This document shows positions 1,002-38,462 of a stretch of 39,294 bases of DNA, piece by piece. The stretch spans positions 1-39,294 of the IMG/VR virus record IMGVR_UViG_3300032770_000056. One strand, 5' to 3'. Positions within the stretch are counted from its first letter, which is position 1; every line of letters begins with the position of its first letter. The position numbers were made by a program, and so were the translations under genes. The DNA comes from a virus. A model generated the notes under the pieces. That model saw only the letters and a program-made list of their open reading frames with translations. It was not told where the DNA came from and ran no database searches.

Positions 1002-1002
1002 A

Positions 1003-1743: not shown

Positions 1744-1745
1744 AT

Positions 1746-3059: not shown

Positions 3060-3061
3060 CC

Positions 3062-5437: not shown

Positions 5438-5454
5438 GGAAAGGGTGCTAGGAT
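5427..5454 (+). promoter_or_regulatory. Possible promoter with -10 box 6 nt before a start codon
   Basis: TTGTGC (5427-5432), 16-nt spacer, TAGGAT (5449-5454), then 6 nt to the ATG at 5461. The -35 match is weak. The geometry is the same as at several other genes in this window. AGGA inside the -10 box could instead act as a ribosome-binding site, so this is the least certain member of the set. Confidence 0.25.
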
Positions 5455-5460
5455 ACCTCT

Positions 5461-5652: not shown

Positions 5653-5661
5653 GGAGGATGT

Positions 5662-5874: not shown

Positions 5875-5875
5875 T

Positions 5876-7138
5876 GTGCGCGTCGCATGGCCTTCCAACT
5901 TCGGGGAAGGTTTGTGGCTGGCCTGGCTTTTGGGTCAGGAAGGCCACGAAGTATCCGTATCGGTAGCTGAACCCTCCTGCCGTAATGCTCTTCGCGGCAT
6001 CGTCAACCACGTTGAAGATTTTTCTCCTGTAGGAGACTACGACCTTGCCGTGTTCGATGTAACCGGGCAGGGAGAACTTGCCGACCGCACGGCTGCATTG
6101 ATACCCACGATTGGCGATTCCTCACTTGCCGACCGTCTGGAAGACGACCGCCTTTACGCTTTGGAGTTCATGGAGCAATGCGGCATTCAGGTATCGCCGT
6201 GGGAGCACTTCACCAATCCTGCCGATGCCATCCGCTACATCAAGAAGCAGGGAACGCGCCAAGTCTTTAAGCCCGTAGGCGAGCAGGCCGATAAGAGCAC
6301 AACCTACGTGTCATCCTCTGCCGAGGATATGCTGCGGTATTTCGATGTGCTGTTCCGCTCAACCCCGCAGAAAGAATTCGTGCTTCAGGAGGTAGTGGAC
6401 GGAACGGAAGTTTCGACGGAAGTCTATCTCAACGACACGGGCTACTATGCGCTGAATCACACGCTTGAATTGAAGCGGCTGATGAACGGGGATGTTGGCC
6501 CCAACACGGGATGTTCCGGTTCGCTCTGCTGGATGGCCCCTACGGAGAATCAGATATTCACGAAGGGATTAAAGAAGGCCCTTGGCCCGCTGCGCGAGTT
6601 GGGCTATCGAGGCCCAATTGACCTGAATACCATTGTGAACCGTTCTGGTGTGTACGGTCTGGAGTTTTGTGCCCGGTTCGGCTATGACGCCACGGCTCCG
6701 TTGACAAAACTGCTGTCCGTTGGCTTCGGTGATTTCCTGTATGCCATCGCCACGAATCAGAAGGTTCCTGAACTCGTTCCACGGCATTCGTTCTGCGCGA
6801 CAACGCGGCTTTCCATTCCTCCCTATCCGTCAGAGGGATTGCCCGAGAAATTCTACAAGCAGGGTGTTCCGATTGAAGGGCTGAAGCCGGACATGCTCGA
6901 CAAGTTCTTCATCTACGATGTCATGGCAAAAGAGGATTCCGACGAACTGGAAAGCGCAGGAATATGCGGCTGGATTGGCGGTCCTTTAGCAGTAGGAGAA
7001 ACCATCGGGCAGGCATGGGAAGGCGCAAAAGACATGGTGTCGCAAGTCAAGATTCCCAACTGCCAGTATCGTACCGACTGCCCGCAGAACACAGCGCGAC
7101 GCTACGAGGAATTGCGCTCAAATGGATGGCTGCGGTGA
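5876..7138 (+). CDS. PurD-like ATP-grasp ligase (phosphoribosylamine-glycine ligase family)
   Basis: 420 residues from GTG 5876; the frame is open further upstream (ATG 5759), but that part overlaps the preceding gene in another frame and lacks the family's N-terminus. The start VRVAWPSNFGEG matches the N-terminal nucleotide-binding-like domain of GAR synthetase. The ATP-grasp core has the nucleotide-binding Lys132 in VFKPVG and the family signature KRLMNGDVGPNTG (200-212). The metal-site region is LEFCARFGYDA (262-272), where PurD proteins normally have EFNARFGDPE, so the Asn ligand is Cys265. The C-terminal part (PNCQYRTDC, 394-402) matches the end of PurD, so the protein is full length (usual about 425). 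It could be an auxiliary purine-synthesis gene, or a PurD-derived ligase for a peptide or virion substrate, given that it sits among structural genes and small peptides. Confidence 0.85.
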   Translation: MRVAWPSNFGEGLWLAWLLGQEGHEVSVSVAEPSCRNALRGIVNHVEDFSPVGDYDLAVFDVTGQGELADRTAALIPTIGDSSLADRLEDDRLYALEFMEQCGIQVSPWEHFTNPADAIRYIKKQGTRQVFKPVGEQADKSTTYVSSSAEDMLRYFDVLFRSTPQKEFVLQEVVDGTEVSTEVYLNDTGYYALNHTLELKRLMNGDVGPNTGCSGSLCWMAPTENQIFTKGLKKALGPLRELGYRGPIDLNTIVNRSGVYGLEFCARFGYDATAPLTKLLSVGFGDFLYAIATNQKVPELVPRHSFCATTRLSIPPYPSEGLPEKFYKQGVPIEGLKPDMLDKFFIYDVMAKEDSDELESAGICGWIGGPLAVGETIGQAWEGAKDMVSQVKIPNCQYRTDCPQNTARRYEELRSNGWLR

Positions 7139-7242
7139 TGCCGGAAGAGATTGACGACAGCGAAGACATTCTTCAGGAAAACCTGGACCCCGAAGCGGAT
7201 TCCAGTCTTGGCGAAGGGGCTGATGAAGAGGAAGACGACTGA
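7138..7242 (+). CDS. 34-residue highly acidic peptide coupled to the ATP-grasp gene
   Basis: The ATG at 7138 overlaps the ATP-grasp stop (TGATG), so translation is probably coupled; a GTG at 7135 is in the same frame. The product is 34 residues, of which about half are Asp or Glu, ending in ADEEEDD. It has no cysteine or hydrophobic core. Very acidic small proteins occur in phages as nucleic-acid mimics or minor structural proteins. Coupling to an ATP-grasp ligase also makes a modified-peptide hypothesis possible. No function can be assigned from the sequence. Confidence 0.5.
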   Translation: MPEEIDDSEDILQENLDPEADSSLGEGADEEEDD

Positions 7243-7318
7243 GTGTATGACAAAAGCTAGCTTTCTCGTTTCCCTGCTGTAGCTTCCCGCATAGAATTGG
7301 CCTATGCGTAAGCACGCT

Positions 7319-8035
7319 TTAACGTTTGCGGTTGAGGCGATGCTCAATCGCGTGGCAATTGGGGCACAGGAACTCCAGATTATCCAAGGAATTGTGAGAT
7401 ACATCTTCGTCCTTGTGATGGGCCTGAAGAATTTCTATGTGCTCTTCATATCCACATTTAGCGCACTTCTGTTCCCTACCAGAAGACACAAGAAAGTCTC
7501 TGATTCTGGACGGCCTACCCCTTGCCCTATTTCTACAATTATTGGAACAAAATTTAGTCCTTTTTCCGTTGAGTTTGGAAGTGGAGAATTCCCGGCCACA
7601 AAGGACACAGAATACCGTTACTCTTTGAGATGCAATGAACAGGAGCTTGCATCTGTCAGAACAAAACTTCTGAATTTTGCTGCTGTATGTTTTGCGTTTG
7701 AATTCATTCTTGCAGTGGAGGCAAGTCCAGGACGGGACAGGTTTGATTCTTCCAGAGTATTCTCCAGACTTCGCTCTCCACTTTGCGGTGCATGTACATG
7801 AACAAAAACGCGATGGATTTTTTGTCCCTGCATTCCATGATTGGAACTTTTTACCGCACATTTCGCAATGAATTAAAGGACCTTCTCTTGGTCTTCCCTT
7901 CCTCTGTCCCGGCAGGTAATGGACATTGTGAAACTTCCTATCCGCGCATTTACGATTGCAATAAAGCCTCGTTGCTTTGTAAGTTTCAAAACTCACGCCG
8001 CAGTATTCGCACTTCTTTTTTCTCAGTGCTCGCAT
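7319..8035 (-). CDS. HNH endonuclease with four tandem zinc-finger modules
   Basis: 238 residues on the minus strand, in an otherwise rightward region. The ATG at 8035 has AAAGGA 7 nt upstream. Residues about 9-160 contain four repeats of a CxxC ... CxxxC zinc-finger-like unit (CEYC/CNRKC, CEMC/CSCTC, CLHC/CSDRC, CVLC/CSNNC). The C-terminal HNH domain has CAKCG ... LQAHHKDED ... LEFLCPNCHAIEHR, with the His-His pair, the Asn-rich loop and the second zinc knuckle. HNH proteins of this kind are usually free-standing homing-type nucleases in phages; the zinc fingers would bind DNA. It overlaps the first codons of the tail gene on the other strand and has its own promoter, both consistent with a mobile intruder. 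Confidence 0.88.
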   Translation of the reverse strand: MRALRKKKCEYCGVSFETYKATRLYCNRKCADRKFHNVHYLPGQRKGRPREGPLIHCEMCGKKFQSWNAGTKNPSRFCSCTCTAKWRAKSGEYSGRIKPVPSWTCLHCKNEFKRKTYSSKIQKFCSDRCKLLFIASQRVTVFCVLCGREFSTSKLNGKRTKFCSNNCRNRARGRPSRIRDFLVSSGREQKCAKCGYEEHIEILQAHHKDEDVSHNSLDNLEFLCPNCHAIEHRLNRKR

Positions 8036-11000
8036 TTTTATTCCTTTGTCTTACTGTACCAGTCCTGAGGGCGCAGTCAACTAGTGTTTCAGGAAACGTC
8101 AGTGATGCCTCCGGGCAGGCATGGTTCGGCGGCACCTACCAGTTTTCTTTCTATCCGTCTCCCACAAATCCAATCGGCCCGTACTTCATCAACGGGACTC
8201 CGTTCGATACCGGGACGACAATATCAGGAAGCCTCGATAGTTCGGGCAATTACTCAGCTTCCGTTCCCCCCAACACGTCCATTTCCCCATCGGGAAGCCT
8301 GTGGACGCTGACGGTTTGTCCGCAAGCCACTTACAAGTGCTACACGCAGAACTATTCCGTCACCGGAGTATCGCAAACGGTTTCTCCTGTTCCTCCGGCC
8401 ATCACCATTGATATGTCCCAGCCGCATGTACGGACAGCGGCCTACGCAGACACGGAAATCATAAACGCCAATCTCGGCATCACGTATTTCAATCTTCTGG
8501 ACAACACAATCCACATTTGCAATTCATATCCATGCGGGTGGATTTCAGCGGCAATAAGCAGCCTAGCCACTGGTGTAAATGCTCCGCAGAACACCCAACT
8601 GCCTCCCTACCAAGTCGGCCCGGACTGGTATGCAGGTACAGCATCGGGACTTTGTCCGGTTCCTGCCGCTCCTACTGTATCCACGGAAAGTGCCATCTCT
8701 GTTACTGGGAATTTCGATTCATCCACGACGTACTATGTTGTTGTCACTGGCCTCGACCGAAACGGCGAGACGACGAAAAGCGCGGAGACATCCTATAAGC
8801 CCGCGTCCGGCTCAACCAACACGGCACTCGTTAAACTTTCGGGCTATTCCTATCGGGCCGGTTGCTACGCTTACCGCACCTACATCGGAACCTCTAGCGG
8901 TGGTCCTTACTACCTCGCATCCGCGTACACTTCCCCGGCGTCTAGCATTTCTTCATGGTCTTGCACGACAACAAAACTCTGTACGGTAACCACTTCTGCC
9001 GGGCATGGATTCCTGCCCGGAGAGTATGTGACGATTTCAGGGGCAACGACGGGAGGAAGCGCCACCACAATCAACGGTTCGTTCACGTTGGTTGCGCAAC
9101 AGGGTTCCAGTCCTACAACCTTTTTCTTCTTCCGTTCCAGCGCAACATCGGATTCTGCATCAGCGGGTGGAACAGCTACAGTGACTTTGGGATTTGGTTC
9201 CGATGCCACGGCGCATATGGCCCCCGGCGACATGATTATCTCGACGGTGCCTGTGAGCGGTACGCAGCCACCGAGTTCCAATACTGCGAAGATTGACGCA
9301 ATCCAAGTGGCCCTGAATGCTACTTGCAACTATGCGGCTGGCACCTGCGCGAACGGGGAACTCATCGTCCCGCAGGGAAGTCTGACCTTGACCACCCCGC
9401 TTATCGTCTCTAACCAGCAGACCGTAACCGGGGTTAATACGGCCAATGCCAAAGGAAAATCACAACTATTGTGTCCGTGGGCCGACCCGAATCTTGGTTG
9501 CGTGATGCGACTCGGCGGAGCGAATGGAGTAAGAATCCAAAACCTTGACATTCAGAGCAGCGGGAACGGTTTGATGATTACGGGTCAAGGTGCGGCGTAC
9601 GCAGGGTCAAACAACTTTTTCATGAACAACAATATCACCGCCAACTCCACCTCGGGAACGTACTCGGCGGTCATTTACCGGACTGGGGTATGGTACGAGG
9701 AGCACTGGACTGGCAATTTGCTTACCGGTGATTTGGCGTGCGTATTAATGCAGGGAATCTCTGGGGGATTCTATTTCTACAGCAAGGGGCGCTGGCAGGC
9801 GGCGAATCTTTCAGCGCAAGGTTTGTTCACGAACGGCCTTCTTGGCTATTCCGCCGTAACCGACCCCGATAGAGGGCAGAACCGTGGAGGATTCAGCAAT
9901 GGTGCCTCCATGGTGGAGGTGTCCGACTTAATCCTTGAGGTAAGCACGGGCGTGGCAATGGATTGCATCAACCTTGGCTGCAAGTTCCGAAACTTTCAGA
10001 CAGCGGATTCATCCGCGCTATCTGGCGCTCCGGCTCTAGTACAGTTCGGAGCGGACGCCAATGCTGGGGGGAGTTCCACTCTGTTTGCTTTCGAGATGGA
10101 GGACTCGGTGGTGTTCCCCACCGGAAATGTCCCCGTTGGTTTCCAGTTTACGGGAGGACAAACTGGAATCATCAGTTTCACGCGCTCTTCCATGGGCGGA
10201 ACGATAGACCTCCAGAACAACAGTCCGACCATAAACTGCATCGCCTCCCCTTGCCGGGCGTGGGGCGGAGCGACGGTTGGGGATTATTTCATCAATGTGG
10301 GCGTATCTGCACGAATCAATGTGTACGCCGCGCAGAGCGACGGTTCTAGCAATTCCGGCTGGGGACAGAATATGTTCAACGGCGGGATTCGATTGCTGTC
10401 GGATGGAAGTTCCGGTGGTGGATTTCCGCACCCCGATATTTATCTGGAGACCTACAACTACAACGGTTCGGGGGATGGCCACGGCAACGCCGGAGAGTTC
10501 TGGTTCCAAGGTACCCCGGCTACGGTTGCCAACCAGTATAAAAACTGCCAAGCATTCGGAAGTGGTGCTCGGTGCAAATGGCTTGAGAACGATGGCTCTA
10601 CTGCTTTGCTGGACTTAAATGCTCAGGCCGGAGCGAATCAAATCAATCTGTGCTCGTCATCTGGAACGAACAGCCAATTGACGGTCGGATGCACGATGAA
10701 CGCGCAGATGATTATCCCGAGCGCCGACCACACGTATGCTCTGGGAAGCCTAATCGCTCCGACTTCGGGATGGGTGTCGCTAATCCTTTCCGCCAATGGG
10801 AGCGAAACTGCCCTGCAAGGCAACGCAAGCTGGGCTGGCATCGGCAACAACAAGACCGTGTATTTGCCTCCTGGCCCGAGCACGATGGTCGGTGTCCCTT
10901 TCGGGGTCGGATTAGACCAGACCGGAGTAAGCACAGCCAATTCAGGAAGCCCGCAATCCATTCTTGCCACTGTTCCAGTATCAGGCCAATACAGAGTCAG

Positions 11001-11274
11001 CATCTACGTGGACCAGAGCGCCGGATGCGCCACAGTCGGTGCTGGTTCATTGACGGTTGTTTTGGGATGGACGGACGGCACAAATGCCAGAGTATCGGCC
11101 ACGCTCACACTGACGCCAGGTACGGCAGCTACAGGAACTAGCAGTTACGTTTCGGCCACGCAATTCATTTGGGCCGCAGCCTCATCCGCTATCACTGTGA
11201 CGGATACCTATACCGCTTGCAGCGTAGGAACATGGACATACGACCAGCACGCAACGGTCGAGAGGACTGAATAA
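8026..11274 (+). CDS. Large tail-fibre/tailspike-like beta-helix protein with N-terminal signal peptide
   Basis: About 1082 residues if translated from GTG 8026. The frame stays open back to ATG 7783, but that part is antisense to the HNH gene and is rejected. No clear ribosome-binding site precedes 8026, so the start is uncertain and may have been altered by the HNH insertion. The N-terminus (LAFLFLCLTVPVLRAQ) is a typical Sec signal peptide. Two immunoglobulin-like regions follow (about 15-220 and 220-330), then a GHGFLPGEYVTISG module (about 325-340) seen in phage tail proteins. A long right-handed beta-helix-like region of pectate-lyase type follows (about 415-850, with repeated hydrophobic-Asn/Gly turns), then a C-terminal beta-rich domain. 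It is the first of four similar secreted-type genes; receptor binding or polysaccharide degradation is the likely role. Confidence 0.72.
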   Translation: MLAFLFLCLTVPVLRAQSTSVSGNVSDASGQAWFGGTYQFSFYPSPTNPIGPYFINGTPFDTGTTISGSLDSSGNYSASVPPNTSISPSGSLWTLTVCPQATYKCYTQNYSVTGVSQTVSPVPPAITIDMSQPHVRTAAYADTEIINANLGITYFNLLDNTIHICNSYPCGWISAAISSLATGVNAPQNTQLPPYQVGPDWYAGTASGLCPVPAAPTVSTESAISVTGNFDSSTTYYVVVTGLDRNGETTKSAETSYKPASGSTNTALVKLSGYSYRAGCYAYRTYIGTSSGGPYYLASAYTSPASSISSWSCTTTKLCTVTTSAGHGFLPGEYVTISGATTGGSATTINGSFTLVAQQGSSPTTFFFFRSSATSDSASAGGTATVTLGFGSDATAHMAPGDMIISTVPVSGTQPPSSNTAKIDAIQVALNATCNYAAGTCANGELIVPQGSLTLTTPLIVSNQQTVTGVNTANAKGKSQLLCPWADPNLGCVMRLGGANGVRIQNLDIQSSGNGLMITGQGAAYAGSNNFFMNNNITANSTSGTYSAVIYRTGVWYEEHWTGNLLTGDLACVLMQGISGGFYFYSKGRWQAANLSAQGLFTNGLLGYSAVTDPDRGQNRGGFSNGASMVEVSDLILEVSTGVAMDCINLGCKFRNFQTADSSALSGAPALVQFGADANAGGSSTLFAFEMEDSVVFPTGNVPVGFQFTGGQTGIISFTRSSMGGTIDLQNNSPTINCIASPCRAWGGATVGDYFINVGVSARINVYAAQSDGSSNSGWGQNMFNGGIRLLSDGSSGGGFPHPDIYLETYNYNGSGDGHGNAGEFWFQGTPATVANQYKNCQAFGSGARCKWLENDGSTALLDLNAQAGANQINLCSSSGTNSQLTVGCTMNAQMIIPSADHTYALGSLIAPTSGWVSLILSANGSETALQGNASWAGIGNNKTVYLPPGPSTMVGVPFGVGLDQTGVSTANSGSPQSILATVPVSGQYRVSIYVDQSAGCATVGAGSLTVVLGWTDGTNARVSATLTLTPGTAATGTSSYVSATQFIWAAASSAITVTDTYTACSVGTWTYDQHATVERTE
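8053..8080 (-). promoter_or_regulatory. Promoter of the HNH gene
   Basis: Reading leftward: TTGACT (8080-8075), 16-nt spacer, TACAGT (8058-8053), then a short leader containing AAAGGA before the ATG at 8035. The promoter lies inside the coding sequence of the oppositely oriented tail gene. Confidence 0.5.
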
Positions 11275-11285
11275 TAGGAGATTCC

Positions 11286-12785
11286 ATGAAAAAGCAACTC
11301 TCATTTCTGCTTCTGGCGCTTGCGATGGCGCTTTTCCTGTCTCCGCCGATTCATGCGCAAGTCGTATCCACAGGAACCATTACGGCGCAAGATGCAGGAA
11401 CGTGCGCCACTTCTCATGCCTGTGTAACTCTGACGTGGCCCCTAGTCGCCCAATTTGCCACGGTGGGTGTCAACGTAACGGGAAACGGAAGTGCCAACAC
11501 CTTGCAGTTTGAGGGCACTGTGGACGGAACAACCTTCGTGAGCGTGCAAGCGTTTCCCGTGGCGGGAGGTTCCTCCGTAACCAGCACAACGGGTAATGGC
11601 GCATGGCAGGTGCAGGTTGGGGGAATGGTTGAATTTCGCGTCCGTTGCTCAACCTTCGTAGGCGGAACGGTTACTGTTCAGCTTCAGACTTCACAGGCCC
11701 CACTGATGAGCGGTGGCGGAGGTGGGGGTGGCTCTGGCACGGTCAATAGCGGGACGGCCACCCATTTTGCCTATTATGCCGGGAGCGGTACGGCAGTTAG
11801 TGACATGGGCGCGGACTTCGTGTTTGGCAGCCACACGATTACTGGCGGAGCGTCCGCGATACTCGACTTGCACTCCGCCAGCACTCTGTTTTACCCCGTA
11901 AGTGCGGGATGCTCCTCAGCAACGACTGGCTCCATCTGCTACGACACAACGAACAAGAACACGCATATATGGACAAATGGCGCAGACTCAATCGCGGCAG
12001 CAGAAGCATCGGCTATTACGTCCGGCTACATTCCGAAGTCGTCTAGTTCAACTATAGGATTACTTGCAGCCTCGGCGTTGAATGACGGAGTTACGACAGC
12101 AAATACGCTTACTTACACAGGTTCTGGAGGCATTGCGGCCTCAAATGGTTCCATCACGGCATCCGGCAGCATCGCGGCAGGCTCCTCCTGCACTCCCATG
12201 GGAGCCTCGGCGCATGGCGGGGTGTGCATGGGCGAGAACGCCTCGACGGGATGGACGCCGACTTCGGGATTCGATTACATCCGGGCCGATTCTACGCTTC
12301 ACGGCTTCGAGGGTTCGGTGAACGGCGGCTCAGAAGCTCCTCTGGTGCAGGGGCCGACATCGAGCACGGCAGGCTATCTGGCCGTTTTCAGCAACACGAC
12401 CGGGAATATCCTGAAAAACGGCGGCCTGTTCTCCTGCACGGAAGTCTGGGGCGGCTCGGGTACATCGTTCGCCATGCAGTCCGGCGACGACCTTATCGTA
12501 AAGAACGGCTGTTACAACGATTCCGGTGTGACGCGAACCATCGTGGCCGTGAAGTGCCGCTCCGACAACGCATCGAACAGCACGACCGTCAACCCGACCT
12601 TCGGCTCAGATGGCACAGGCACAACGATTCTCTCGGGTGCGCTGACCTGCGGAAACAGTTACGCCTACTCATCGAGCGGAACTGTCTCGAACGCTTCATG
12701 GACTACCGGAACAGGCATCGCTCCGGGCATGGCTACGGTTGGCAATGCAACGAGTATCGCGCTCATCGTGGAGTACCACTACTGA
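11286..12785 (+). CDS. Tail-locus protein with signal peptide and poly-Gly hinge
   Basis: 499 residues; ATG preceded by AGGAG with good spacing. The first 25 residues are a classic signal peptide (Lys-Lys, then LSFLLLALAMALFL, ending IHAQ). About 27-138 forms a beta-sandwich-like domain resembling phage structural domains that bind a host surface. A run of seven Gly around 142-149 forms a hinge. The rest is Ser/Thr/Gly-rich and beta-predicted, with repeated short motifs of trimeric fibre stalks and a C-terminal beta domain (DDLIVKNGCYNDSG). The stop overlaps the next start (TGATG). Probably a tail fibre or a secreted surface protein; the signal peptide is unexpected for a virion component. 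Confidence 0.65.
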   Translation: MKKQLSFLLLALAMALFLSPPIHAQVVSTGTITAQDAGTCATSHACVTLTWPLVAQFATVGVNVTGNGSANTLQFEGTVDGTTFVSVQAFPVAGGSSVTSTTGNGAWQVQVGGMVEFRVRCSTFVGGTVTVQLQTSQAPLMSGGGGGGGSGTVNSGTATHFAYYAGSGTAVSDMGADFVFGSHTITGGASAILDLHSASTLFYPVSAGCSSATTGSICYDTTNKNTHIWTNGADSIAAAEASAITSGYIPKSSSSTIGLLAASALNDGVTTANTLTYTGSGGIAASNGSITASGSIAAGSSCTPMGASAHGGVCMGENASTGWTPTSGFDYIRADSTLHGFEGSVNGGSEAPLVQGPTSSTAGYLAVFSNTTGNILKNGGLFSCTEVWGGSGTSFAMQSGDDLIVKNGCYNDSGVTRTIVAVKCRSDNASNSTTVNPTFGSDGTGTTILSGALTCGNSYAYSSSGTVSNASWTTGTGIAPGMATVGNATSIALIVEYHY

Positions 12786-13516
12786 TGCGCCGCGCAATTC
12801 TATTCACAGCGTTAATTCTGCTTGCTGCATTTGTGCTCTCAGGATTCTCGTCTCAGGAGATAGTAGTAGGGAGACGCAGGGCAGTGAGCGGCGGGTCTCC
12901 CGCTCTAGTTACCCAATGCGCCGGGGGCAGTTTCGGGAATTCGACTACCACCACCTGTTACACGACGGGAACTACCAAACCATCAATTGGAGCGGGAACG
13001 GATGTTTTGGTCTTGTGGGTGCAAGGCACTTCTCACCAGACTGTCACAACTCCATCCGGCTGTGGGGCTACTTGGAGCATCGTAGGCAGTATCGACCCAA
13101 CAGTTTACGCTGTCTTCTATATAGGCACATCTCCAACCCCGGGCACCTGCACGCTCACGGAAACGTCCAGTGGCGACGGAACGTCCGGGGAAGTGGATAT
13201 GTATATGTGGGACACAAGCGGAACGCTCTCTACTGTGGATGGGACGCCAGGCTATGCCTCGACTTCTTTCTGTACCAGTTGCTCAGGTGCCAGCACTACA
13301 TCCAGCAATGACGGCGGATTGGCTTTGGGGGTTGTAAGAGGCGGCAATTTAACTGGCTGGACAAGCCCTTCTCATCAGATTACGGGAATTTCGGAGGGTG
13401 GAGTTGTATTCAACGGCGCATGGGAAGTGCAAGGAACTCATGGAGCGAAACAGAACGTGTGGACGAGTAGCGGCTCTGCGGCCTACAACGCAATCATTAT
13501 AATGAGGCACTCTTGA
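12785..13516 (+). CDS. Tail-locus secreted protein with concanavalin/Ig-like beta fold
   Basis: 243 residues. The ATG overlaps the stop of the previous gene (TGATG). Residues 1-25 (RRAILFTALILLAAFVLSGF) are a signal peptide or membrane anchor. The mature part is Gly/Ser/Thr-rich, with four closely spaced cysteines (FCTSCSGAS near 160, and others) that could form disulfides, which would suit an extracytoplasmic protein. The sequence pattern (LVLWVQGTSHQTVTTPSGCG) resembles phage and environmental proteins with an Ig-like or lectin fold. Function unknown; probably part of the receptor-interaction set. Confidence 0.58.
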   Translation: MRRAILFTALILLAAFVLSGFSSQEIVVGRRRAVSGGSPALVTQCAGGSFGNSTTTTCYTTGTTKPSIGAGTDVLVLWVQGTSHQTVTTPSGCGATWSIVGSIDPTVYAVFYIGTSPTPGTCTLTETSSGDGTSGEVDMYMWDTSGTLSTVDGTPGYASTSFCTSCSGASTTSSNDGGLALGVVRGGNLTGWTSPSHQITGISEGGVVFNGAWEVQGTHGAKQNVWTSSGSAAYNAIIIMRHS

Positions 13517-15543
13517 TACGCCGAATACTCCTGTTCGCGTGTATCGCGTGTTTGCTGGCCATACCCGTAAGCGCACAGACCATTAACGCATCCTCGTGCT
13601 CGGCCAACGATATTGCGGACGCACTGGGCAGCATCGCGTCAGACGGGGCCGTGGTCGTGGTTCCCTCGGGAGATTGCACTTGGGGCGCTCAATCGGCGCA
13701 CAGTTCCGGCACCGCCAGCGTGAGCACAGCCGGGCAGCTTACCTACACGCAGACCAACTCGTTTACCCTGCAAGGTGCGGGGGCCATCTACTTCGACCCT
13801 TCGAACATTTCCGGGCAGGGCAGCGATCTCACCACCATCGAGAACAACATCACCAGCGGGTCGAATATGTTTGCGGTGACGACCATCACCGGAAAATCGT
13901 TCCGCATGACGGGCTTCCACTGGAAGTGGCACAGCGGCAACAGCAACGGCCAGTCAAACGGATGGGTGCAAGTGGGGGGAGTATCCACGTCCGTGCGCGT
14001 TGACCACAACCATTTCGACCAGATGAACAACGTGGACTTGCAGCTTCAGGGCTGCGTTCGCGGGGTGGTTGACCACAACCAGTTCGATACAAGCTACGGC
14101 AGCGAGACGCCCCACCGCTTTCAGAGCGGAAGCTGCACCGGAGATACGCAGGGTTTCGGAGATGGCACTTGGGCGTCTGCGTCGGGATGGGGAACCTCCG
14201 ACTTCGTTTTCGCGGAACTCAATAACTACCAGACCGTGAGCGGGACGAATGCCGGTTACCCGTTCGATTGCTCGAAGGGCGGCAAGTTCGTATGGCGGTT
14301 CAATCACACCGGGAACTACCAGCTTCTCGTCACGCACGGAACTGGAAACTCTTCCGATGGCAGCCGGGGATGCCGTGCCGGAGAAGCGTACGGCAATACG
14401 ATGGTTTACAGTGCCGACCCTACTGACCATAACGCCACGCTGATTCAGGCGGAAAGCGGCGGCTACTACTGGTGGGGCAACACGCTGACCGGATACTACG
14501 GGGTATTTCAAGCGGACATCGTTCGGACGAACGAGGTCACCTACACGCAGGGCACGCCTCCTGCCGGATGGGGCTACTGCGGGACGACCTACGGCCCGTC
14601 CAACTGGGACGAAAACAACGACTCGACGGGATATGCGTGCCTCGATGGGATTGGGCGGGGCGGAGGAGACATCCTGCAAGGGACACTGACTGCCCACAAC
14701 CGCTGCGATGCGACGCTGAGTTCGGGAACGCCGGGAGCCTGCGGAAGTGGAGTCTACACGGGCGTATGGCCCAATCAGGCGCTTGACCCTGTGTATGTCT
14801 GGAGCAACGTGCAGAACGCCGTGCCGGATAGGACGAATCACTATTGGGTGAACTATCCGACGCCGACCGCCGTCACGGAAAATCAGGACTACTATCTGGA
14901 GCAACCGAATGTGGATTCCGCCTCCACGTTTGACGGCACAAAGGGCGTTGGTTGCGGACCGTCTTCCTCGCCGTCCTGCACGAACAATGTGGCGCGTCCT
15001 GCGACCTGCACGAAGGGCGTGGCTTACTGGAACGAATCCGAAGGAAGCTGGAACACAAGCGGCAATGGCTTTGGCAGCGGACGGTTGTATATCTGCACTT
15101 CGACAAATACTTGGACGCTTTCCTATACGCCCTACACGTTTCCGCATCCGCTCGATACGGGCACGCAGGCCGCTACGCCGACTTTCAACCCCGGTGGCGA
15201 ATCCCATTCCGGCTCGCTGACCGTTACGATGTCCTCGACCTCGGGCACGGTGATTTGCCACGGGACGGGCAGCAGCCCGGCCACGAACGGTGACGGCTCG
15301 ACGTGTTCCATCGGTTCGGCCATCACGACGAATTCCGGCACGAACTGCGTGGCATCCTCGACCGTGTGCGGCGACATCACGGTGAGCACGACACAGACGC
15401 AGTACGCCGTAGCAGGCTCGGCCTCGCTGACCGACTCAAATATCCAGAGCGCGGCGTACACGATTCTCTCGGCATCGCAGGCAGGCGGCGTGGCGTCTGG
15501 CGTGGGGCTGGCATCGGGGACGGCGATTAAGCCGTACCAATAG
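13513..15543 (+). CDS. Beta-helix tail protein with signal peptide and chitobiase-like C-terminal domain
   Basis: 676 residues starting with TTG at 13513, overlapping the previous stop (TTGA); no ATG fits. Residues 1-22 (IRRILLFACIACLLAIPVSAQ) are a signal peptide. Residues about 25-400 look like a right-handed beta-helix of pectin-lyase type (many His-Asn and Gly turns, DHNHFDQMNNVDLQLQGC). Residues about 550-676 match the repeat found at the C-terminus of chitobiase/hexosaminidase-type proteins (TPTFNPGGESHSGSLTVTMS), common in Acidobacteriota secreted proteins. A carbohydrate-binding or -cleaving tailspike is likely; catalytic residues cannot be assigned by eye. Confidence 0.65.
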   Translation: MIRRILLFACIACLLAIPVSAQTINASSCSANDIADALGSIASDGAVVVVPSGDCTWGAQSAHSSGTASVSTAGQLTYTQTNSFTLQGAGAIYFDPSNISGQGSDLTTIENNITSGSNMFAVTTITGKSFRMTGFHWKWHSGNSNGQSNGWVQVGGVSTSVRVDHNHFDQMNNVDLQLQGCVRGVVDHNQFDTSYGSETPHRFQSGSCTGDTQGFGDGTWASASGWGTSDFVFAELNNYQTVSGTNAGYPFDCSKGGKFVWRFNHTGNYQLLVTHGTGNSSDGSRGCRAGEAYGNTMVYSADPTDHNATLIQAESGGYYWWGNTLTGYYGVFQADIVRTNEVTYTQGTPPAGWGYCGTTYGPSNWDENNDSTGYACLDGIGRGGGDILQGTLTAHNRCDATLSSGTPGACGSGVYTGVWPNQALDPVYVWSNVQNAVPDRTNHYWVNYPTPTAVTENQDYYLEQPNVDSASTFDGTKGVGCGPSSSPSCTNNVARPATCTKGVAYWNESEGSWNTSGNGFGSGRLYICTSTNTWTLSYTPYTFPHPLDTGTQAATPTFNPGGESHSGSLTVTMSSTSGTVICHGTGSSPATNGDGSTCSIGSAITTNSGTNCVASSTVCGDITVSTTQTQYAVAGSASLTDSNIQSAAYTILSASQAGGVASGVGLASGTAIKPYQ

Positions 15544-27482: not shown

Positions 27483-27643
27483 CACTGGCGCTCCCGTTCG
27501 TTAAGCTCTTCCACTAGACGGTCGGTATCAATCCATCCGTGGATATAGCATCCGGTTAGCGAAGGCTCTGCTATAACCGGTGGGCCGCAATCGTGCCGCT
27601 TCAAAATCTCAATGAATCGCTGGATGGTCCACGGCTCTTTCAC
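27482..27643 (-). CDS. Small hypothetical protein displaced by the HNH gene
   Basis: 53 residues from GTG 27643, which has a strong AGGAGGG 6 nt upstream; the open frame continues to 27796 but without a start signal. It has EPWTIQRFIEILKRHDCGPP at the start and a helical acidic end (TDRLVEELNERERQ). Its ribosome-binding site and first codons lie inside the 3' end of the HNH gene in another frame. Function unknown. Confidence 0.5.
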   Translation of the reverse strand: MKEPWTIQRFIEILKRHDCGPPVIAEPSLTGCYIHGWIDTDRLVEELNERERQ

Positions 27644-28124
27644 GTTTATCCCTCCTGTATCTGGCGGCTGCGTTCTCTCGATTACAAGCTTTGCAGTGCC
27701 TGGCTCCGCGCCAGTGGTATGTGTTTTGCTCATTGAATTCGTGCCCATGGATACAGTGCGTTTGCCGAGCATGCCGCCACGCCTTGTTTGGCCCAATTTC
27801 CCAATGTTCTCTTTTGGTAAGCGGCTTCACATGACGAGGATTGACACAATTTTTCGACGGGCATAGATGGTGCAGGTCTATTCCCGCTTCCACCGGCCCG
27901 ACAAGCTGGAAATAAGCGAATCTGTGGGCAGGCCATTTGACATCGTGCCTCTCTGTAAATATGCCGTGCCCTAGCCGCCCAGTCTCGCATTCCCATAACC
28001 AACACCTTCCCAATCTGCGGAACTTCGGCCCTTCCATGTTTACCTTCGACCAAAATCGAGCGATTATTGGCGCTTTTGTGCGCTCTTTTTGGCTACCCGT
28101 TTTCCCACCCTTTGATTTGCTCAT
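27609..28124 (-). CDS. HNH endonuclease with AP2-like basic region
   Basis: 171 residues from ATG 28124; the frame continues upstream through another gene and is not used. A Lys/Ser-rich N-terminus is followed by RFWSKVNMEG ... CWLWECETGRLGHG ... AHRFAYFQLVGPVEAGIDLHHLCPSKNCVNPRHVKPLTKREH: the classic HNH_3 arrangement (His-Arg, His-His, Asn-Pro-Arg-His). It ends with a CIHGHEFNEQNTY...HCKAC segment that may bind zinc. The gene overlaps the end of the preceding gene by 32 nt and the start of the next by 35 nt, and has a promoter-like sequence 6 nt upstream of its ATG. Confidence 0.88.
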   Translation of the reverse strand: MSKSKGGKTGSQKERTKAPIIARFWSKVNMEGPKFRRLGRCWLWECETGRLGHGIFTERHDVKWPAHRFAYFQLVGPVEAGIDLHHLCPSKNCVNPRHVKPLTKREHWEIGPNKAWRHARQTHCIHGHEFNEQNTYHWRGARHCKACNRENAAARYRRDKRERAVDHPAIH

Positions 28125-28386
28125 CGGAGCAATGTTCCCACAGTGTACACATAATGTCAAGCGCCTGTCCTTTCGGAAGCAGACCGAACCAGCGGTCACG
28201 CGCAGCATAGAGGCGCGAGGCATGGTCATCGTCGCAGCAGATGACAAAGCGCCTTTGGGGATGCTTGGCCTTAAAGCGCATCTCAATCCGAGGCATGTAT
28301 GGGATGACGCCCTGCGCCACAACTTCATCCGAGACGGAATCCAGCCATTGCCGAATCTCCGCCTTTGTGTGCATGGCACGGCTCAC
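28093..28386 (-). CDS. Hypothetical protein downstream of ERF
   Basis: 97 residues from GTG 28386, which overlaps the ERF stop (GTGA) and has AGGGGG upstream; TTG 28395 and ATG 28374 are alternatives. The sequence has HTKAEIRQWLDSVSDEVVAQ, then PRRIEMR-like basic strands and a CCDDDHASRLYAARDRWFGL segment. No domain recognised. Its last 32 nt overlap the HNH start on the same strand. Confidence 0.5.
   Translation of the reverse strand: MSRAMHTKAEIRQWLDSVSDEVVAQGVIPYMPRIEMRFKAKHPQRRFVICCDDDHASRLYAARDRWFGLLPKGQALDIMCTLWEHCSDEQIKGWENG
28131..28160 (-). promoter_or_regulatory. HNH promoter with leaderless geometry
   Basis: Reading leftward: TTGACA (28160-28155), 18-nt spacer, AACATT (28136-28131), 6 nt, ATG at 28124. 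It lies inside the 3' part of the upstream gene. The -10 match is weak, the -35 perfect. Confidence 0.38.
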
Positions 28387-29195
28387 GGGTTCCAATCCCC
28401 CTTGACGGTGTATCCGATTTTCTCAGCCATCGCTTTGCAGTCCTTGGCATACCTGATATCCAGCTTGAAGAAGATTCCGCGCGGGCCACGGAACCGCCCG
28501 GCCCCACAGTCGTTGAAGAATATCCGCATCTGTTCATCGAAGATAGGCTCTCCACGCACGGCCAGAAATTCCCCCTGGTACTTCTCTTCTTGCTCGATAT
28601 AGAGAATCTTGGCCTTCTTCATAATCTTCTCAGCATCCGCTTCGGACTGGGCAAGCTGCGCGTCTTTCTTCGCTCCAAGGGTTGCCATCCGCTGTTCGGC
28701 CACCTCTGCCTGTAGCTTCTTCTTGTCCGATGGCGACATTGCCTCGGCATCGTCGTAAGTGGGAATCAGGAAGGTCTTGAGCAATAGGTACTTTTCGCTT
28801 CCCGTGATGGCCTTATAGGTTCCCTTGTCGCTCGCATCTTCGCCGCAGCCGGGCATATGGCAGACCAGCTTTTCGCCCGTGTCGCCGTCAATCCAAGTCC
28901 ATTCAATGTTCATGTCGGTGATAGCTTTCCGCTTGGCCTTCGGGTCATCTTTGGCCGTGACATCTTCGCGGGCCGTGCTGAGCACATTCGGCACAAGAAA
29001 CACATGCCGTTCGTAAAGCTCAAGGCGAATCGCCATCACAAGGTCAGCCTCGGTCGCGTACTTGTAGCCGTGGAACTTGTTTTCGCCGCGCTTCTCAACC
29101 CACGTAAGCTCCTGGCCCACTTCGCACAGCTTTTGAATCAGGGTCTTTGGCTTCGGCGGCTCGGGCGGCTTCACAGGCTCATTTTGTTCCGGCAT
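28383..29195 (-). CDS. erf: ERF-family single-strand annealing protein
   Basis: 270 residues from ATG 29195 (AGGAG upstream). The N-terminal domain matches the Essential Recombination Function family: LIQKLCEVGQELTWVEKRGE, then KYATEADLVMAIRLELYERH, IEWTWIDGDTGEKL, and the hallmark KGTYKAITGSEKYLLLKTFL (about 130-149), ending in TYDDAE. The middle (about 160-200) is a charged helix. ERF proteins form rings on single-stranded DNA and promote annealing; in phages they circularise or recombine the genome. The C-terminal part (about 205-270) is a domain of its own, with an aromatic/basic pattern, not seen in short ERF proteins. Confidence 0.85.
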   Translation of the reverse strand: MPEQNEPVKPPEPPKPKTLIQKLCEVGQELTWVEKRGENKFHGYKYATEADLVMAIRLELYERHVFLVPNVLSTAREDVTAKDDPKAKRKAITDMNIEWTWIDGDTGEKLVCHMPGCGEDASDKGTYKAITGSEKYLLLKTFLIPTYDDAEAMSPSDKKKLQAEVAEQRMATLGAKKDAQLAQSEADAEKIMKKAKILYIEQEEKYQGEFLAVRGEPIFDEQMRIFFNDCGAGRFRGPRGIFFKLDIRYAKDCKAMAEKIGYTVKGDWNP

Positions 29196-29391
29196 TCGTT
29201 GTCTCCTTTTTCTGCACGGTAAACTCGGGAATGTATCCGTACTCGTCCACAATAGCGAGCAAGTCGTGGTAGAGGTTGTCGCGCTCTGGGGCGGCTTCCG
29301 GCATCTGCGCTATCACTTCGTCAACGCGGGCGTAGATTTGCTTGCTCAGGGAATCGGGCACGATATAGATGCGGTTGAGTTGGCTATCCAT
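29179..29391 (-). CDS. Small hypothetical protein preceding ERF
   Basis: 70 residues from ATG 29391 (GGAGG upstream). The sequence has NRIYIVPDSLSKQIYARVDE and an acidic helix (ERDNLYHDLLAIVDEYGY). It overlaps the ERF start by 17 nt, so the two are probably coupled. Function unknown. Confidence 0.5.
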   Translation of the reverse strand: MDSQLNRIYIVPDSLSKQIYARVDEVIAQMPEAAPERDNLYHDLLAIVDEYGYIPEFTVQKKETTNAGTK

Positions 29392-33442: not shown

Positions 33443-33587
33443 TCGGCCATTCTCAGTTTCCCGGGTACGGGGAGGGGGTCGGTGGGGAAGTAGGAGTCCC
33501 GTTTCATCAGCATCCCCCTGCCACCAAAAATTTTTGCGCAAATTTAAGGCTCCGCCCGAGTAGGTACTAGTACGAACTGGAGGAACG
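33443..33587 (+). other. Non-coding gap with G-rich and A/T-rich blocks
   Basis: No gene in 145 nt. 33465-33495 is strongly G-rich on the + strand (TACGGGGAGGGGGTCGGTGG); 33527-33552 is A/T-rich with short self-complementary parts (AAAAATTTTTGCGCAAATTT). A promoter for the following gene, or a packaging-related site, could lie here; no convincing -10/-35 pair was found. Confidence 0.3.
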
Positions 33588-34241
33588 ATGGCCGCTGAGA
33601 CATTTCGAGATGGAATACTATCTGGTGGCACGGTTATGAAGGATGGTGCGAACGATGCTTCGTGGAGTGTTGAGGTATCAGGAAAGGCAAAGCCGATGCC
33701 GCAGGAGATAGATTTGCGCGGGGAGACGAATGTATTGAAGTTGGGGAGTTTGGAGCTTGAGGCGCACGCCGATAGGCTCATCGTGGTTCGGGACGAGTTC
33801 CGGTCGGGGTATGAGTGTGTGACGTGTACGGGGAAGGGGATGGTGGTTTGCGGGAATTGCGGGGGGACTGGGAAGTCGATAGTGGCTGGGAATGCGAGGT
33901 GTAGCCGGTGTAAGGGCGAGCGGGAGGTGGTGTGCCCGGAATGTCATGGGAAGCAGGTAATGGAGGGCGGGTTGGTGGTGCCGGAGTCGAAGCAGAATGA
34001 ACCGACTACGGGAACGGTGGTGAGTGTGGGGCCGGAAGTAAAGAAGTTTAAGCGGGGGGATGCGGTGCTGTTTGCAAGTTTCACGGGGCATGAGATGGAG
34101 TTGAATGCTTATGATTTGGAGGGGCGCGAGGTTCAGGTGAATATCGTCATTATGCGGGAGTCGGAGCCATTGGCGAGGGTGAGAGGCCATTTGGAGTTGC
34201 GCAGGGTGAAGCGGTCTGTGGCCGTTTCAACGGCGGTGTAG
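33588..34241 (+). CDS. GroES-like co-chaperonin with inserted DnaJ-type zinc finger
   Basis: 217 residues; GGAGGAACG before ATG. Residues 58-72 (ELEAHADRLIVVRDE) and 126-200 (EGGLVVPESKQN, GTVVSVGPEVKKFKRGDAVL, FASFTGHEM) match the two halves of the GroES/Cpn10 barrel, including the GxVVxVGP and GDxVLFxxxxG signatures. Between them, where GroES has its mobile GroEL-binding loop, lies a DnaJ-type cysteine-rich domain: CVTCTGKG (77-84), CGNCGGTG (88-95), CSRCKGER (105-112), CPECHGKQ (116-123), two exact CxxCxGxG repeats and two variants. A 55-residue N-terminal extension precedes the barrel. Phages use co-chaperonins to fold capsid proteins, which fits the position before packaging and capsid genes. 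Base usage here is much more G-rich than in neighbours, suggesting separate origin. Confidence 0.85.
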   Translation: MAAETFRDGILSGGTVMKDGANDASWSVEVSGKAKPMPQEIDLRGETNVLKLGSLELEAHADRLIVVRDEFRSGYECVTCTGKGMVVCGNCGGTGKSIVAGNARCSRCKGEREVVCPECHGKQVMEGGLVVPESKQNEPTTGTVVSVGPEVKKFKRGDAVLFASFTGHEMELNAYDLEGREVQVNIVIMRESEPLARVRGHLELRRVKRSVAVSTAV

Positions 34242-34631: not shown

Positions 34632-34768
34632 AAAATAAGTATCAAAAAGTTCTACACGGAATTGTCTTCACAGAAGAATGCGTTGAGTACTACCCCGAGA
34701 TTGCCATTCTTCTGAGCTTTCTGGAGTTTCGCTATCTACCGTGGCTTAAAGCCTACGAGGTCCTGTGA
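34628..34768 (+). CDS. 46-residue hypothetical protein before TerL
   Basis: GTG 34628 overlaps the previous stop, and its stop overlaps the TerL GTG (34765), so the row is translationally coupled. The sequence is aromatic and acidic in the middle (TEECVEYYPEIAILLSFLEF) and ends in RYLPWLKAYEVL. Function unknown; coupling to terminase suggests a packaging-related role. Confidence 0.5.
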   Translation: MKNKYQKVLHGIVFTEECVEYYPEIAILLSFLEFRYLPWLKAYEVL

Positions 34769-36429
34769 AGTGGAATCCTGTCCCCGTAAATCTTCCCACC
34801 CCTGAAGCCACCAAGGACGCCATGCGGCTTAACTCGCTTGGCAGCCTGTTCTTCTTTGCCCGCGAAGTGCTGATGAAGAAACGCTTTGCCCGTCTGCACG
34901 TTGAGATGTGCCGTTCGCTTGAAACCGAAGACCTGCACCTAGTTCTGGAAATGCCCATGTCGCATTTCAAATCCACTTGTGGGTTGGCTCTTTCCATCTG
35001 GTGGGCATTGCCGTTTACCGACCGCGATGAGTTGCTTATGCGCGGACTGGGTTACGGCGATGAATGGATTCGCTGGATGCGATTCGCCCACAAACAGAAC
35101 ATGCGAACACTCGTTACGCATGAAACCGATGCCCGTGTCACGGCCATGGGCAAGGAAGTAGATGAAGCCTACCAGTCAAATGACCGGTTCCGGGCACTGT
35201 TCCCTGAAATCATTCCCACCGGAAAAGAGACTTGGACCGAGCATACGAAGTATCAACGACGCATACCGGGCGGAGATGTTACAACCGGCACCTATGAGTA
35301 CCGTTCGGTGGGCCAGCCCTTGCAGGGAATTCACGTCGGCGGAATCATTGAAGACGACACAATGGGCAAGGATGCCCAGGATTCCATGCTCAAAGGCGAC
35401 GGACGAGTTCTTGCGGATTTGATTCGCTGGCACCGTCAGGTAGGAACGCGTTTTGACCCGTCAGAGTTTACGACTACTGGACTGGGCAGGCAGTTGGTCA
35501 TCGGCAACCGCTGGGGCCATCAGGACTTGAATAGCTGGATTAAAGCGAATCAGCCGGAATTCAAGTTCGAGACGCATTCGGCTGAAGGGGGATGCTGTCC
35601 GCGCCATCCCAAAAACCAGCCCATCTTCCCCGAAGAATGGACGATGGAACGTCTTCAGCAGCAGAAGAAAACCAGCGGCCCCTATGATTACGCCCATTTC
35701 TATCTGAATCAGTCCGTTCTTCCCGAAGAGTGCATTTTCAAACCGGAATGGCTGCGCTACTTCAAATACAAGCCTTCCCGCCCCGATTTGCCTCTGGAGC
35801 ACGAAGACAACTGGCTGATGATTGAGCATGAAGTCCAGAACGGCGAAACGATTCAGGATGTAAATGCAGGAGTACTCGAAAAGCGCATGATTGTGGATTT
35901 GGCGCACGCCAAAAAGCAGAAACGCTGCAATCATGTCGTTCTCATCGCAGGCCGAGACCCCGAGACGGAAAGGATTTACCTGCTCGATGTATGGGCCGAG
36001 CCTACGCAGTACTCCGATTTGGTGGGCAAGATTTACGAAATGGGCCGCAGGTGGGGAATGCGCGAGATGTGGCTGGAAACAGTGGCGGCGCAAAACCTGA
36101 TGAAGTTCTACCTCGAAGAGCGTAATATGCGCGAGACGAGGCCGATTCAGGTGAATGAACTTCCCTACGACAATTCCCCGAACGCCAAGCGCAACCGCAT
36201 CGAAGTACTGGAGCCGATGTTCAAGAACGGAAACTTCTTCTGCCATCGTTCCCAATCGGCATTCCTGAACGAGTACAATTCCTATCCGGCTGGGCTGATG
36301 GATGTTCTTGACACTCTCGGCTATGTGCCGCAGACTTTCCGCGTAATGAACATGCGTTCGGCTATGGAGTGGTTCTCACGCCAGAGGGATACGTTCGCTT
36401 CGCGTCCTGTGGGTGCCGGGGGCTACTGA
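34765..36429 (+). CDS. terL: Terminase large subunit
   Basis: 554 residues from GTG 34765 (GTGA overlap with the gene before). The ATPase domain has a Walker-A-like loop EMPMSHFKST (62-71, a terminase-type deviant P-loop) and a Walker B strand GGIIEDD (192-198). The nuclease domain has an RNase H-like core: MIVDLAHA (Asp378), IYLLDVW (404-410), MWLETVAA (Glu438) and LMDVLD near 511-516. Terminase cuts concatemeric DNA and pumps it through the portal. The deviant P-loop and context suggest a T7-like or related podovirus type. Its stop overlaps the portal start (TGATG). Confidence 0.93.
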   Translation: MKWNPVPVNLPTPEATKDAMRLNSLGSLFFFAREVLMKKRFARLHVEMCRSLETEDLHLVLEMPMSHFKSTCGLALSIWWALPFTDRDELLMRGLGYGDEWIRWMRFAHKQNMRTLVTHETDARVTAMGKEVDEAYQSNDRFRALFPEIIPTGKETWTEHTKYQRRIPGGDVTTGTYEYRSVGQPLQGIHVGGIIEDDTMGKDAQDSMLKGDGRVLADLIRWHRQVGTRFDPSEFTTTGLGRQLVIGNRWGHQDLNSWIKANQPEFKFETHSAEGGCCPRHPKNQPIFPEEWTMERLQQQKKTSGPYDYAHFYLNQSVLPEECIFKPEWLRYFKYKPSRPDLPLEHEDNWLMIEHEVQNGETIQDVNAGVLEKRMIVDLAHAKKQKRCNHVVLIAGRDPETERIYLLDVWAEPTQYSDLVGKIYEMGRRWGMREMWLETVAAQNLMKFYLEERNMRETRPIQVNELPYDNSPNAKRNRIEVLEPMFKNGNFFCHRSQSAFLNEYNSYPAGLMDVLDTLGYVPQTFRVMNMRSAMEWFSRQRDTFASRPVGAGGY

Positions 36430-38462
36430 TGGCAGCCGTTCCCCAAATCGCAGAAGATTCCAAAGTCACACTGACCCACCGTTCGCGGCGAGACTTTGAG
36501 TTGCGCGAGGCCGATTTTGGGAAGGACACGAACGAGGCCATCAATAAATGGGTGTGGGAGCAAATCAACGTCCGGCGCAAGCAACTTGAAAACCTTCACA
36601 AGCACAAAGTCCCGGAATGGCGGCGCATCGCCTCTGGCAAGCCCCGCGAGGAAAACAAATCCTGGCCCTTCCCGAACTGCGCCAATCTTGTCTACCAGCT
36701 TGTCGGGCAGTCCGTGGATGAGTTGGCTTCGCGTGTCATTGGTCTTCTTTACGAGACTTCCCCGCTCGCCTATTTCGAGTATTTCACAGAGCCGAAAGAC
36801 CAAGCGGAGGCTCATCACAACGCGCGGAAGTCGGAACTACTTGAAAAGTTCATTGATGTTGTTGGCTACGAGCCGGAAGAACTGGACTTGCGCAGGATTG
36901 AAAGCCTGTGGTTTTCCGATTCCGCCAAACTCGGAACGGCATGGGTAGCAGCCTATCCAGAGAAAGTAGCGGAAGCTGTTTACGTGGGATACGTGCCGGA
37001 CAAGAAGAAGACGGCCTTTGAGGAAGACACGCTCTACGAGGGGCCGAAGTGCAGGGTACTGCGCTACGAGGATGTACTGTTCGACCCCGATGCGGATACT
37101 CCCGAAGAATCAGAATGGCTCTCTCGGAAAGTCACACTAAGCAAGCGGCAGTTGCAGGAACGCGCCTTCCGGGGAATCTTCAACGAAGACAAGGTTCGTT
37201 CGATTCTCGGCAAGCCCGACCGCTACGGCCCCGGAGAAATCAAGAAGCGTGAGCAACTGAAAAAGGGAATACAGACAGATTCCGAAGAGCATGTACTGGC
37301 CGAATGGGATATTGAAGAGGGCTATTTCTACTGGTACAAGGGCAAGAAGAAGTTCCGCCTGATTTGCTGGTATCACTTCGCCACAAAGACGATGCTTAAT
37401 CTCGTCTTCAACTTCATTCCCGATAACCGGGTTCCTCTTGTGCGCACCCGGCTGTCGATGGACGAGCATGGCATGATTGGACGCGGCTATGCCGACATGC
37501 TCAAGGATTCGCAGGATGAAATCTCGACTGCCAAGAATCAGCGCACCGATGCCATTACGTTTGGAATCCTCGGCATCAACCGTGTCTCCCCGCAGAACAA
37601 GAACATCGACAAGAACTTCACCATCTTTCCCGGGGCATGCATGCCGTTCGGGGACGGGGAGTTCGAGCATTTCTCGATTGGCGAGGCGGCAATGGCCGGA
37701 GTGTCTCTCGAAAACGAATCCATGATGATTCAGCAGGCCATCGAACGCGCAGGCGTAGGGCCTCCGGCTTCGGGGTTGGGCGCAGGGTCAGGAAAGATTG
37801 GCGCAAAGGGACAGATTCAATTTGGCTCGATGGGCACGCTTGCCGTTCTTCAAGCCAACAATACCCGTTCGAGTCACAGACTTTCTGACTTCCGGCACTC
37901 CCACGTCAAGCTCATCAGCCTTCTGACTTCGATGTACGGAGCAATGGGGCTGGGGCGCAAGGGAACGCTTTTCGGAATGGATGAAAAGATTCTTACCGAA
38001 GCGTTGCAGGACGTTCTGGAGCATCGCGTAAGAATACCGATTCGCGCTTCCGAGGCTTCCTCGAATAAGGAAGTGGACAAGGCGAACGGGATGTTGTTCA
38101 TGCAGGTAATGAGACAACATCATCAGTCCATTTCAACGCTGCTTCAGGCCCTATCGAATCCGAATGTACCTGATGAGGCTAAGAAATACTTCGCCAAGGT
38201 GATTGACGCGCAGAACTTCATGTTCCAGAGACTGTTGCGCGATTTTGGCTACGAGCAGGTAAAGCAATTCGCGCCGGAGCCGGACATCCATGAGCAGGAA
38301 AAAACGAAGCGTGCAGGACTCCTTCAGATGGCCGCAAGCCTTCGCCAACCTGGAGGCATCCACGCTCCTGGTGGAACAGGCGGGATGGAAGGCGGTTTTG
38401 GCGGACCTCCAAGCTCTAGCGGACTCCCTCCGGTACAAGGTGGTCCATCAAGTTCCAGTTAA
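36429..38462 (+). CDS. Portal protein
   Basis: 677 residues from ATG 36429 (the open frame to 36369 overlaps TerL). Features of podovirus portals are present: WPFPNCANLVYQLVGQSVDE, a hydrophobic helix SRVIGLLYETSPLAYFEYF, a beta core including VLRYEDVLFDPDADTPEESE, and helical stretches around AKNQRTDAITFGILGINR and MLKDSQDEISTAK. The last ~35 residues are Gly/Pro/Ser low complexity. The portal forms the dodecameric DNA channel at one head vertex. The C-terminal tail is overlapped by another gene in a different frame (38290-38571). Confidence 0.88.
   Translation: MAAVPQIAEDSKVTLTHRSRRDFELREADFGKDTNEAINKWVWEQINVRRKQLENLHKHKVPEWRRIASGKPREENKSWPFPNCANLVYQLVGQSVDELASRVIGLLYETSPLAYFEYFTEPKDQAEAHHNARKSELLEKFIDVVGYEPEELDLRRIESLWFSDSAKLGTAWVAAYPEKVAEAVYVGYVPDKKKTAFEEDTLYEGPKCRVLRYEDVLFDPDADTPEESEWLSRKVTLSKRQLQERAFRGIFNEDKVRSILGKPDRYGPGEIKKREQLKKGIQTDSEEHVLAEWDIEEGYFYWYKGKKKFRLICWYHFATKTMLNLVFNFIPDNRVPLVRTRLSMDEHGMIGRGYADMLKDSQDEISTAKNQRTDAITFGILGINRVSPQNKNIDKNFTIFPGACMPFGDGEFEHFSIGEAAMAGVSLENESMMIQQAIERAGVGPPASGLGAGSGKIGAKGQIQFGSMGTLAVLQANNTRSSHRLSDFRHSHVKLISLLTSMYGAMGLGRKGTLFGMDEKILTEALQDVLEHRVRIPIRASEASSNKEVDKANGMLFMQVMRQHHQSISTLLQALSNPNVPDEAKKYFAKVIDAQNFMFQRLLRDFGYEQVKQFAPEPDIHEQEKTKRAGLLQMAASLRQPGGIHAPGGTGGMEGGFGGPPSSSGLPPVQGGPSSSS

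Follow-up and report, generated by a model that had tools for sequence, protein, structure and literature searches.

A putative phage co-chaperonin with a BSD2-type cysteine-rich domain inserted in its GroES-like mobile loop

Few known proteins are as constrained as GroES, in which the mobile loop serves as the textbook docking element. The CxxCxGxG motif of DnaJ-type cysteine-rich domains is a structural zinc site. Phage T4 encodes gp31, which is needed for folding of the T4 capsid protein and replaces GroES on GroEL; relative to GroES, its roof loops are absent and its mobile loops are longer (PMC6318259). Zinc proteins of the BSD2 type bind client proteins and protect them, ZnJ2 is likewise a client-binding chaperone, and thiol activity has been described for DnaJ Cys-rich domains (PMC5818400). 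Here we describe a phage gene, P0001, in which these two kinds of chaperone appear to be joined, with the cysteine-rich domain lying within the mobile loop of the lid.

The window, which is the whole 39,294-base stretch analysed, is the record of an uncultured virus to which no named phage is closely related, and the features of the P0001 locus are listed in Table 1. The start of P0001 is ambiguous and may be either the ATG behind the GGAGG or the internal ATG at M37; the latter is suggested because close relatives start there. The first 36 residues are unconserved. Elsewhere in the window there are matches to an ERF-type recombinase and, weakly, an HNH endonuclease (28386-29252 and 27612-28379, both on the minus strand), and ten large ORFs of the left arm (261-15543) gave no clear matches when compared with PHROG.

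Table 1. Features of the P0001 locus in window coordinates.
Feature	Coordinates	Strand	Remarks
Zinc-finger co-chaperonin ORF (P0001)	33588..34241	+	217 codons, 217 aa; 181 aa if translation begins at ATG 33696
GGAGG, ribosome-binding-like	33579..33583	+	4 nt 5' of ATG 33588; read from the sequence
N-terminal extension, residues 1-52	33588..33743	+	Residues 1-36 with low pLDDT and no counterpart in close relatives
Predicted Cpn10 barrel, first half, residues 53-76	33744..33815	+	Includes DRLIVVRDEF, equivalent to GroES DRVIVKRKEV
BSD2/DnaJ-type Cys-rich insert in the mobile-loop N-terminal arm	33816..33944	+	CxxC pairs C77/80, C88/91, C105/108, C116/119
Putative GroEL-docking element G127-G128-L129-V130-V131-P132	33966..33983	+	Equivalent to GroES G23-G24-I25-V26-L27
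Predicted Cpn10 barrel, second half, residues 133-199	33984..34184	+	Roof segment of ~8 residues at 34035-34055
C-terminal tail GHLELRR...	34185..34238	+	Common to most family members; absent from L027/L029 and GroES
Terminase large subunit	34765..36429	+	Downstream of P0001; syntenic marker
Portal protein	36429..38462	+	Listed ORF start is GTG 36369

By sequence, predicted fold and docking motif, P0001 is a Cpn10. The Pfam Cpn10 profile matches residues 120-174 (E 2.5e-9, 37.5 bits, cut-off 21.1) and the PHROG match is co-chaperonin GroES (1.5e-9); the protein falls below the NCBIfam GroES equivalog cut-offs. Family-wide, the Cpn10 profile matches with E up to 0.01 in 43 of 44 members. The plain match begins past the Cys-rich stretch, and the N-terminal half was therefore tested apart. 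With the insert excised, the Cpn10 match reaches profile position 2-3 in three family members, with gains over controls in which the N-terminal half was shuffled of 5.6, 8.5 and 12.8 bits, values that are indicative since they rest on one shuffle per member. Sixteen family sequences were used to build an AlphaFold2 model of the single chain; its pLDDT exceeds 90 across most of the barrel and is 87-90 within the insert, and in this model both halves form one GroES-like barrel. VIA-align places model residues 53-200 on the Cpn10 structure 1p3h with Z 10.6 (1.5 A over 71 residues) and the model on gp31 with Z 9.9 (2cgt_O; 4.0 A over 78 residues) and Z 8.8 (1g31_A), against a background in which unrelated rows have Z 7 and below. 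A sequence-only reading of this DNA had proposed a GroES barrel assembled from two halves, with residues 58-200 in a single barrel, and the profile, N-terminal half and model comparisons all agree with it. The model is a monomer and the hinges of its zinc module are of lower confidence (pLDDT ~65-71), so that any placement of the module relative to GroEL is tentative.

The insert contains four CxxC motifs, starting at residues 77, 88, 105 and 116, and both profile and predicted structure place it closer to BSD2 than to DnaJ. Pfam BSD2_CRD matches residues 77-128 (E 4.5e-6) at 27.2 bits, just above its cut-off of 27, whereas DnaJ_CXXCXGXG (0.046, 14.4 bits) remains below its cut-off of 32.7. 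The model aligns with Arabidopsis BSD2 6ekb over P0001 residues 73-123, and a Foldseek superposition of the insert on this structure gives 1.0 A for 54 columns. In sequence, each of the eight cysteines has its counterpart in 6ekb. From motif and fold, the insert would be predicted to bind two zinc ions. The four-repeat DnaJ-type cysteine-rich insertion that had been claimed is thus recovered; of the two profiles proposed for checking it, Cpn10 is matched above its cut-off and the DnaJ Cys-rich domain is not. P0001 has no Pfam match to a J domain (HPD motif), and its classification as a DnaJ was rejected on this count and on the DnaJ profile score. Among the wider family, the DnaJ_CXXCXGXG profile matches with E up to 0.01 in 24 of 44 members, one of which (L060) is just above the cut-off.

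The order of elements indicates where the insert lies. P0001 residues 62-71, DRLIVVRDEF, align with residues 8-17 of E. coli GroES, DRVIVKRKEV; the four CxxC motifs follow, and after them G127-G128-L129-V130-V131-P132, corresponding to GroES G23-G24-I25-V26-L27-T28. As aligned, the insert splits the mobile loop in its N-terminal arm, and the C-terminal arm is retained with a hydrophobic docking triad (IVL in GroES, LVV in P0001) right behind the last CxxC. Among the 48 members that have this region, the triad invariably begins with I, L or V, continues with V or I in 37 and ends with V, I or L in 41; a charged residue (E/D) mid-triad in three members and a histidine at the triad end in two are counted against docking. 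The mobile loop, earlier described as replaced, is therefore better described as interrupted, and its loss was rejected since the triad is kept across the family. The kept triad favours ordinary GroEL docking with an extra module over two alternatives, one in which GroEL is no longer bound and one, also put forward earlier, in which another partner is recruited. The roof segment of P0001 is ~8 residues long, compared with 17 in GroES and 10 in gp31, and to judge from this alignment P0001, like T4 gp31, lacks the roof hairpin. The roof is similarly short in the plain co-chaperonins of phages DSL-LC05 and SJC03.

The phages with this gene are a little-known group represented by environmental sequence only. 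After merging near-copies there are 51 distinct homologues, all in uncultured phage contigs, and the zinc region is intact in 48, the other three being truncated or partial; the same fusion is thus found in many other phages. Four or more CxxC motifs are present in 46 of the 48, and two in the remaining pair (L012 and L056). These counts combine an automatic parse of 46 members (four CxxC before the docking element in 44, two in two) with a reading by eye of L024 and L028, each of which has four or more. P0001 alone as a query gave no matches among viral contigs. A terminase query recovered 30 related contigs, many with the zinc co-chaperonin gene, and family-alignment scans recovered more, the alignment of all first 16 members being too diverse as a scan query; the portal found no relatives, and the divergent members L028 and L029 matched only themselves.

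The gene lies upstream of the terminase gene, on the same strand and within ~2.2 kb, in 49 of the 50 loci with terminase in reach, a synteny that is partly due to selection because some loci were fetched through terminase, although it is present too in loci recovered through the co-chaperonin gene itself. The phage setting proposed earlier is thus supported, and the same architecture recurs in dozens of phages. In two further related phages (L018 and L019), both among 27 longer records that were tested, the gene is away from terminase and the zinc insert is still present. L029 (12751-13620, minus strand) is the sole member oriented opposite to terminase and also lacks the conserved C-terminal tail; it shares a GroES-like end with L027. 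Cpn10 is matched in 26 of 27 longer records, and the 27th (G022, L068) has a family member too weak for Pfam. No Cpn60 was found in the 27 related phage records (14 of 14 control genomes were positive), and host GroEL would therefore be the partner.

We found no published, named-phage or plasmid example of a GroES lid with a zinc module in its mobile loop. A literature search, in which coverage of papers and public proteins is incomplete, returned no description of such an architecture; the plasmids searched gave no matches to the zinc co-chaperonin; and named phages gave partial Cpn10 matches only, the three examined being plain Cpn10s. In 84,980 bacterial and archaeal genomes, two scans with short conserved motifs turned up no copy of either cellular or prophage origin, which only suggests absence from cellular genomes because such scans are narrow and may miss relatives. 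An uncultured 636-kb phage (H2) has a match to the Cys-rich part alone.

Selection was computed on close pairs, in which synonymous sites are often saturated; with that proviso, dN/dS is ~0.03-0.12 for the barrel in most pairs and 0 to ~0.4 for the insert among four-motif pairs. These sequence comparisons indicate purifying selection on both barrel and insert, with the barrel more tightly constrained in most pairs. Insert dN is mostly above barrel dN, the eight cysteines being nearly fixed, and insert length from first to last CxxC ranges from 21 to 68 aa across the family. Two members, L060 (2947-3768) and L069 (4953-5633), have a second CxxCxGxG pair exactly at the position of the GroES roof hairpin. 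L060 is nested among members without a roof module (support 99/98) and L069 groups with L065 and L068 (93/70), so that two separate gains of the roof zinc module are likely, though not proven. Reduction is also seen, in the two-motif members L012 (1173-1823) and L056 (4956-5423). What L012 retains is the outer pair, motifs 1 and 4; in DnaJ these share one zinc, and loss of motifs 2 and 3 therefore fits the loss of one whole site.

A plausible scenario, which we consider probable from sequence and model, is that P0001 is a phage co-chaperonin of the gp31/GroES kind that caps host GroEL for phage proteins, its zinc modules contacting either clients or GroEL. Seven copies would form a dome on host GroEL, with the retained hydrophobic triad as the point of docking, and the folding chamber would thereby be turned over to phage proteins, among which the capsid protein is the likeliest client. 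By analogy with T4 the capsid protein is a plausible client, and the location of the gene in the packaging/head region, with a major head (capsid) protein gene further downstream in L002, is counted for such a gp31-like reading. Against it stands the L002 capsid protein, the only one found, which at ~322 aa is well under the size thought to make T4 need gp31, so that the lack of a roof does not by itself imply that the client is oversized. With a two-zinc BSD2-type module in each mobile-loop N-terminal arm, seven zinc modules would be arrayed near the GroEL apical domains and chamber rim, where we favour client contact as their role, the modules holding the phage client or passing it on. Client contact is favoured on three grounds: apart from its nearly fixed cysteines, the insert evolves faster; in L060 and L069 a second module sits at the roof, which is far from GroEL; and BSD2 and ZnJ2 are client-binding chaperones (PMC5818400).

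An alternative role, nearly as likely and a serious possibility in its own right, is that the zinc module mainly gives a second grip on GroEL, by a rigid loop or an added apical contact, allowing the phage lid to win out over host GroES, with clients left untouched. In its favour, the insert is next to the docking triad within the loop that contacts GroEL, and displacement would pay since host GroES is present at infection; but the roof modules of L060 and L069 lie far from GroEL, and the insert varies more in length than a single fixed docking interface would lead one to expect. The barrel might instead have been co-opted, for instance as a DNA-packaging or head-assembly factor that no longer uses GroEL and whose zinc domain binds nucleic acid or terminase. 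The near-constant position just upstream of terminase, the frequency of nucleic-acid binders among zinc modules and the imperfect triads of some members would fit, yet this seems unlikely, as triad position 1 is invariably I, L or V although we know of no barrel-stabilising role for the triad, L018 and L019 have the gene elsewhere, and plain GroES genes occupy the same neighbourhood in other small phages. Less likely again is a redox or zinc-responsive on/off switch of the co-chaperonin, since the CxxCxGxG pattern marks a structural zinc site and two members retain half of it, which a switch could hardly tolerate, even with eight near-invariant cysteines and the thiol activity reported for DnaJ Cys-rich domains (PMC5818400) in its favour. 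An assembly chimera or out-of-frame coincidence of two motifs can be dismissed, since 51 distinct homologues from many metagenomes share the same junctions, both parts appear to be under purifying selection and the structure model matches; recurrence in dozens of phages together with that selection excludes chance.

Returning to client contact, a more specific and tentative proposal is that the lid itself binds clients, being in effect a DnaJ/BSD2-type holdase fused to a GroES lid that delivers the client straight into the GroEL cage. Under the same proposal, and with similar reserve, evolution may have placed modules at the loop or the roof and later removed some of them in part. In the systems that we know of, one protein acts as holdase and another as lid, and a client-binding lid, if true, would join two steps in one protein. 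A loop that holds a 21-68-residue zinc domain and keeps its docking triad would show that the mobile loop tolerates large folded insertions. With this family, a lid that chooses its clients for itself becomes conceivable; the protein could be used as a scaffold in chaperonin engineering, and it adds to the ways in which phages are known to take over host folding.

Compared with known systems, P0001 is most readily set beside T4 gp31, with which it shares a phage-encoded Cpn10 barrel, no roof hairpin, no phage GroEL found and a hydrophobic docking triad (LII in gp31, LVV in P0001). It differs in that the gp31 mobile loop is plain, longer and cysteine-free whereas that of P0001 carries a zinc domain of ~43 residues, and in having a C-terminal tail; the P0001 phages are also unrelated to T4, their terminase matching other phages only, at 20-27%. 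Bacterial GroES/Cpn10 (PF00166) has the same barrel topology and docking element, but without the interrupted mobile loop and extra C-terminal tail, and with the roof hairpin that P0001 lacks. Plant BSD2 (BSD2_CRD, PF25436) shares the four CxxC motifs and the spacing of 11 between motifs 1 and 2, but is free-standing and acts on Rubisco, whereas the P0001 domain is inside a co-chaperonin. The DnaJ/Hsp40 Cys-rich domain (PF00684) shares the CxxCxGxG motifs, but P0001 is without the J domain and the C-terminal client-binding domains. Finally, the plain GroES proteins of phages DSL-LC05 and ct2G2228 and of Bacteroides phage SJC03 are likewise phage Cpn10s, but have no zinc insert. In DSL-LC05 (L085, 3926-4174) and ct2G2228 (L086, 3929-4252) the plain gene lies near terminase and portal, and the terminase-side position therefore seems general to phage co-chaperonins.
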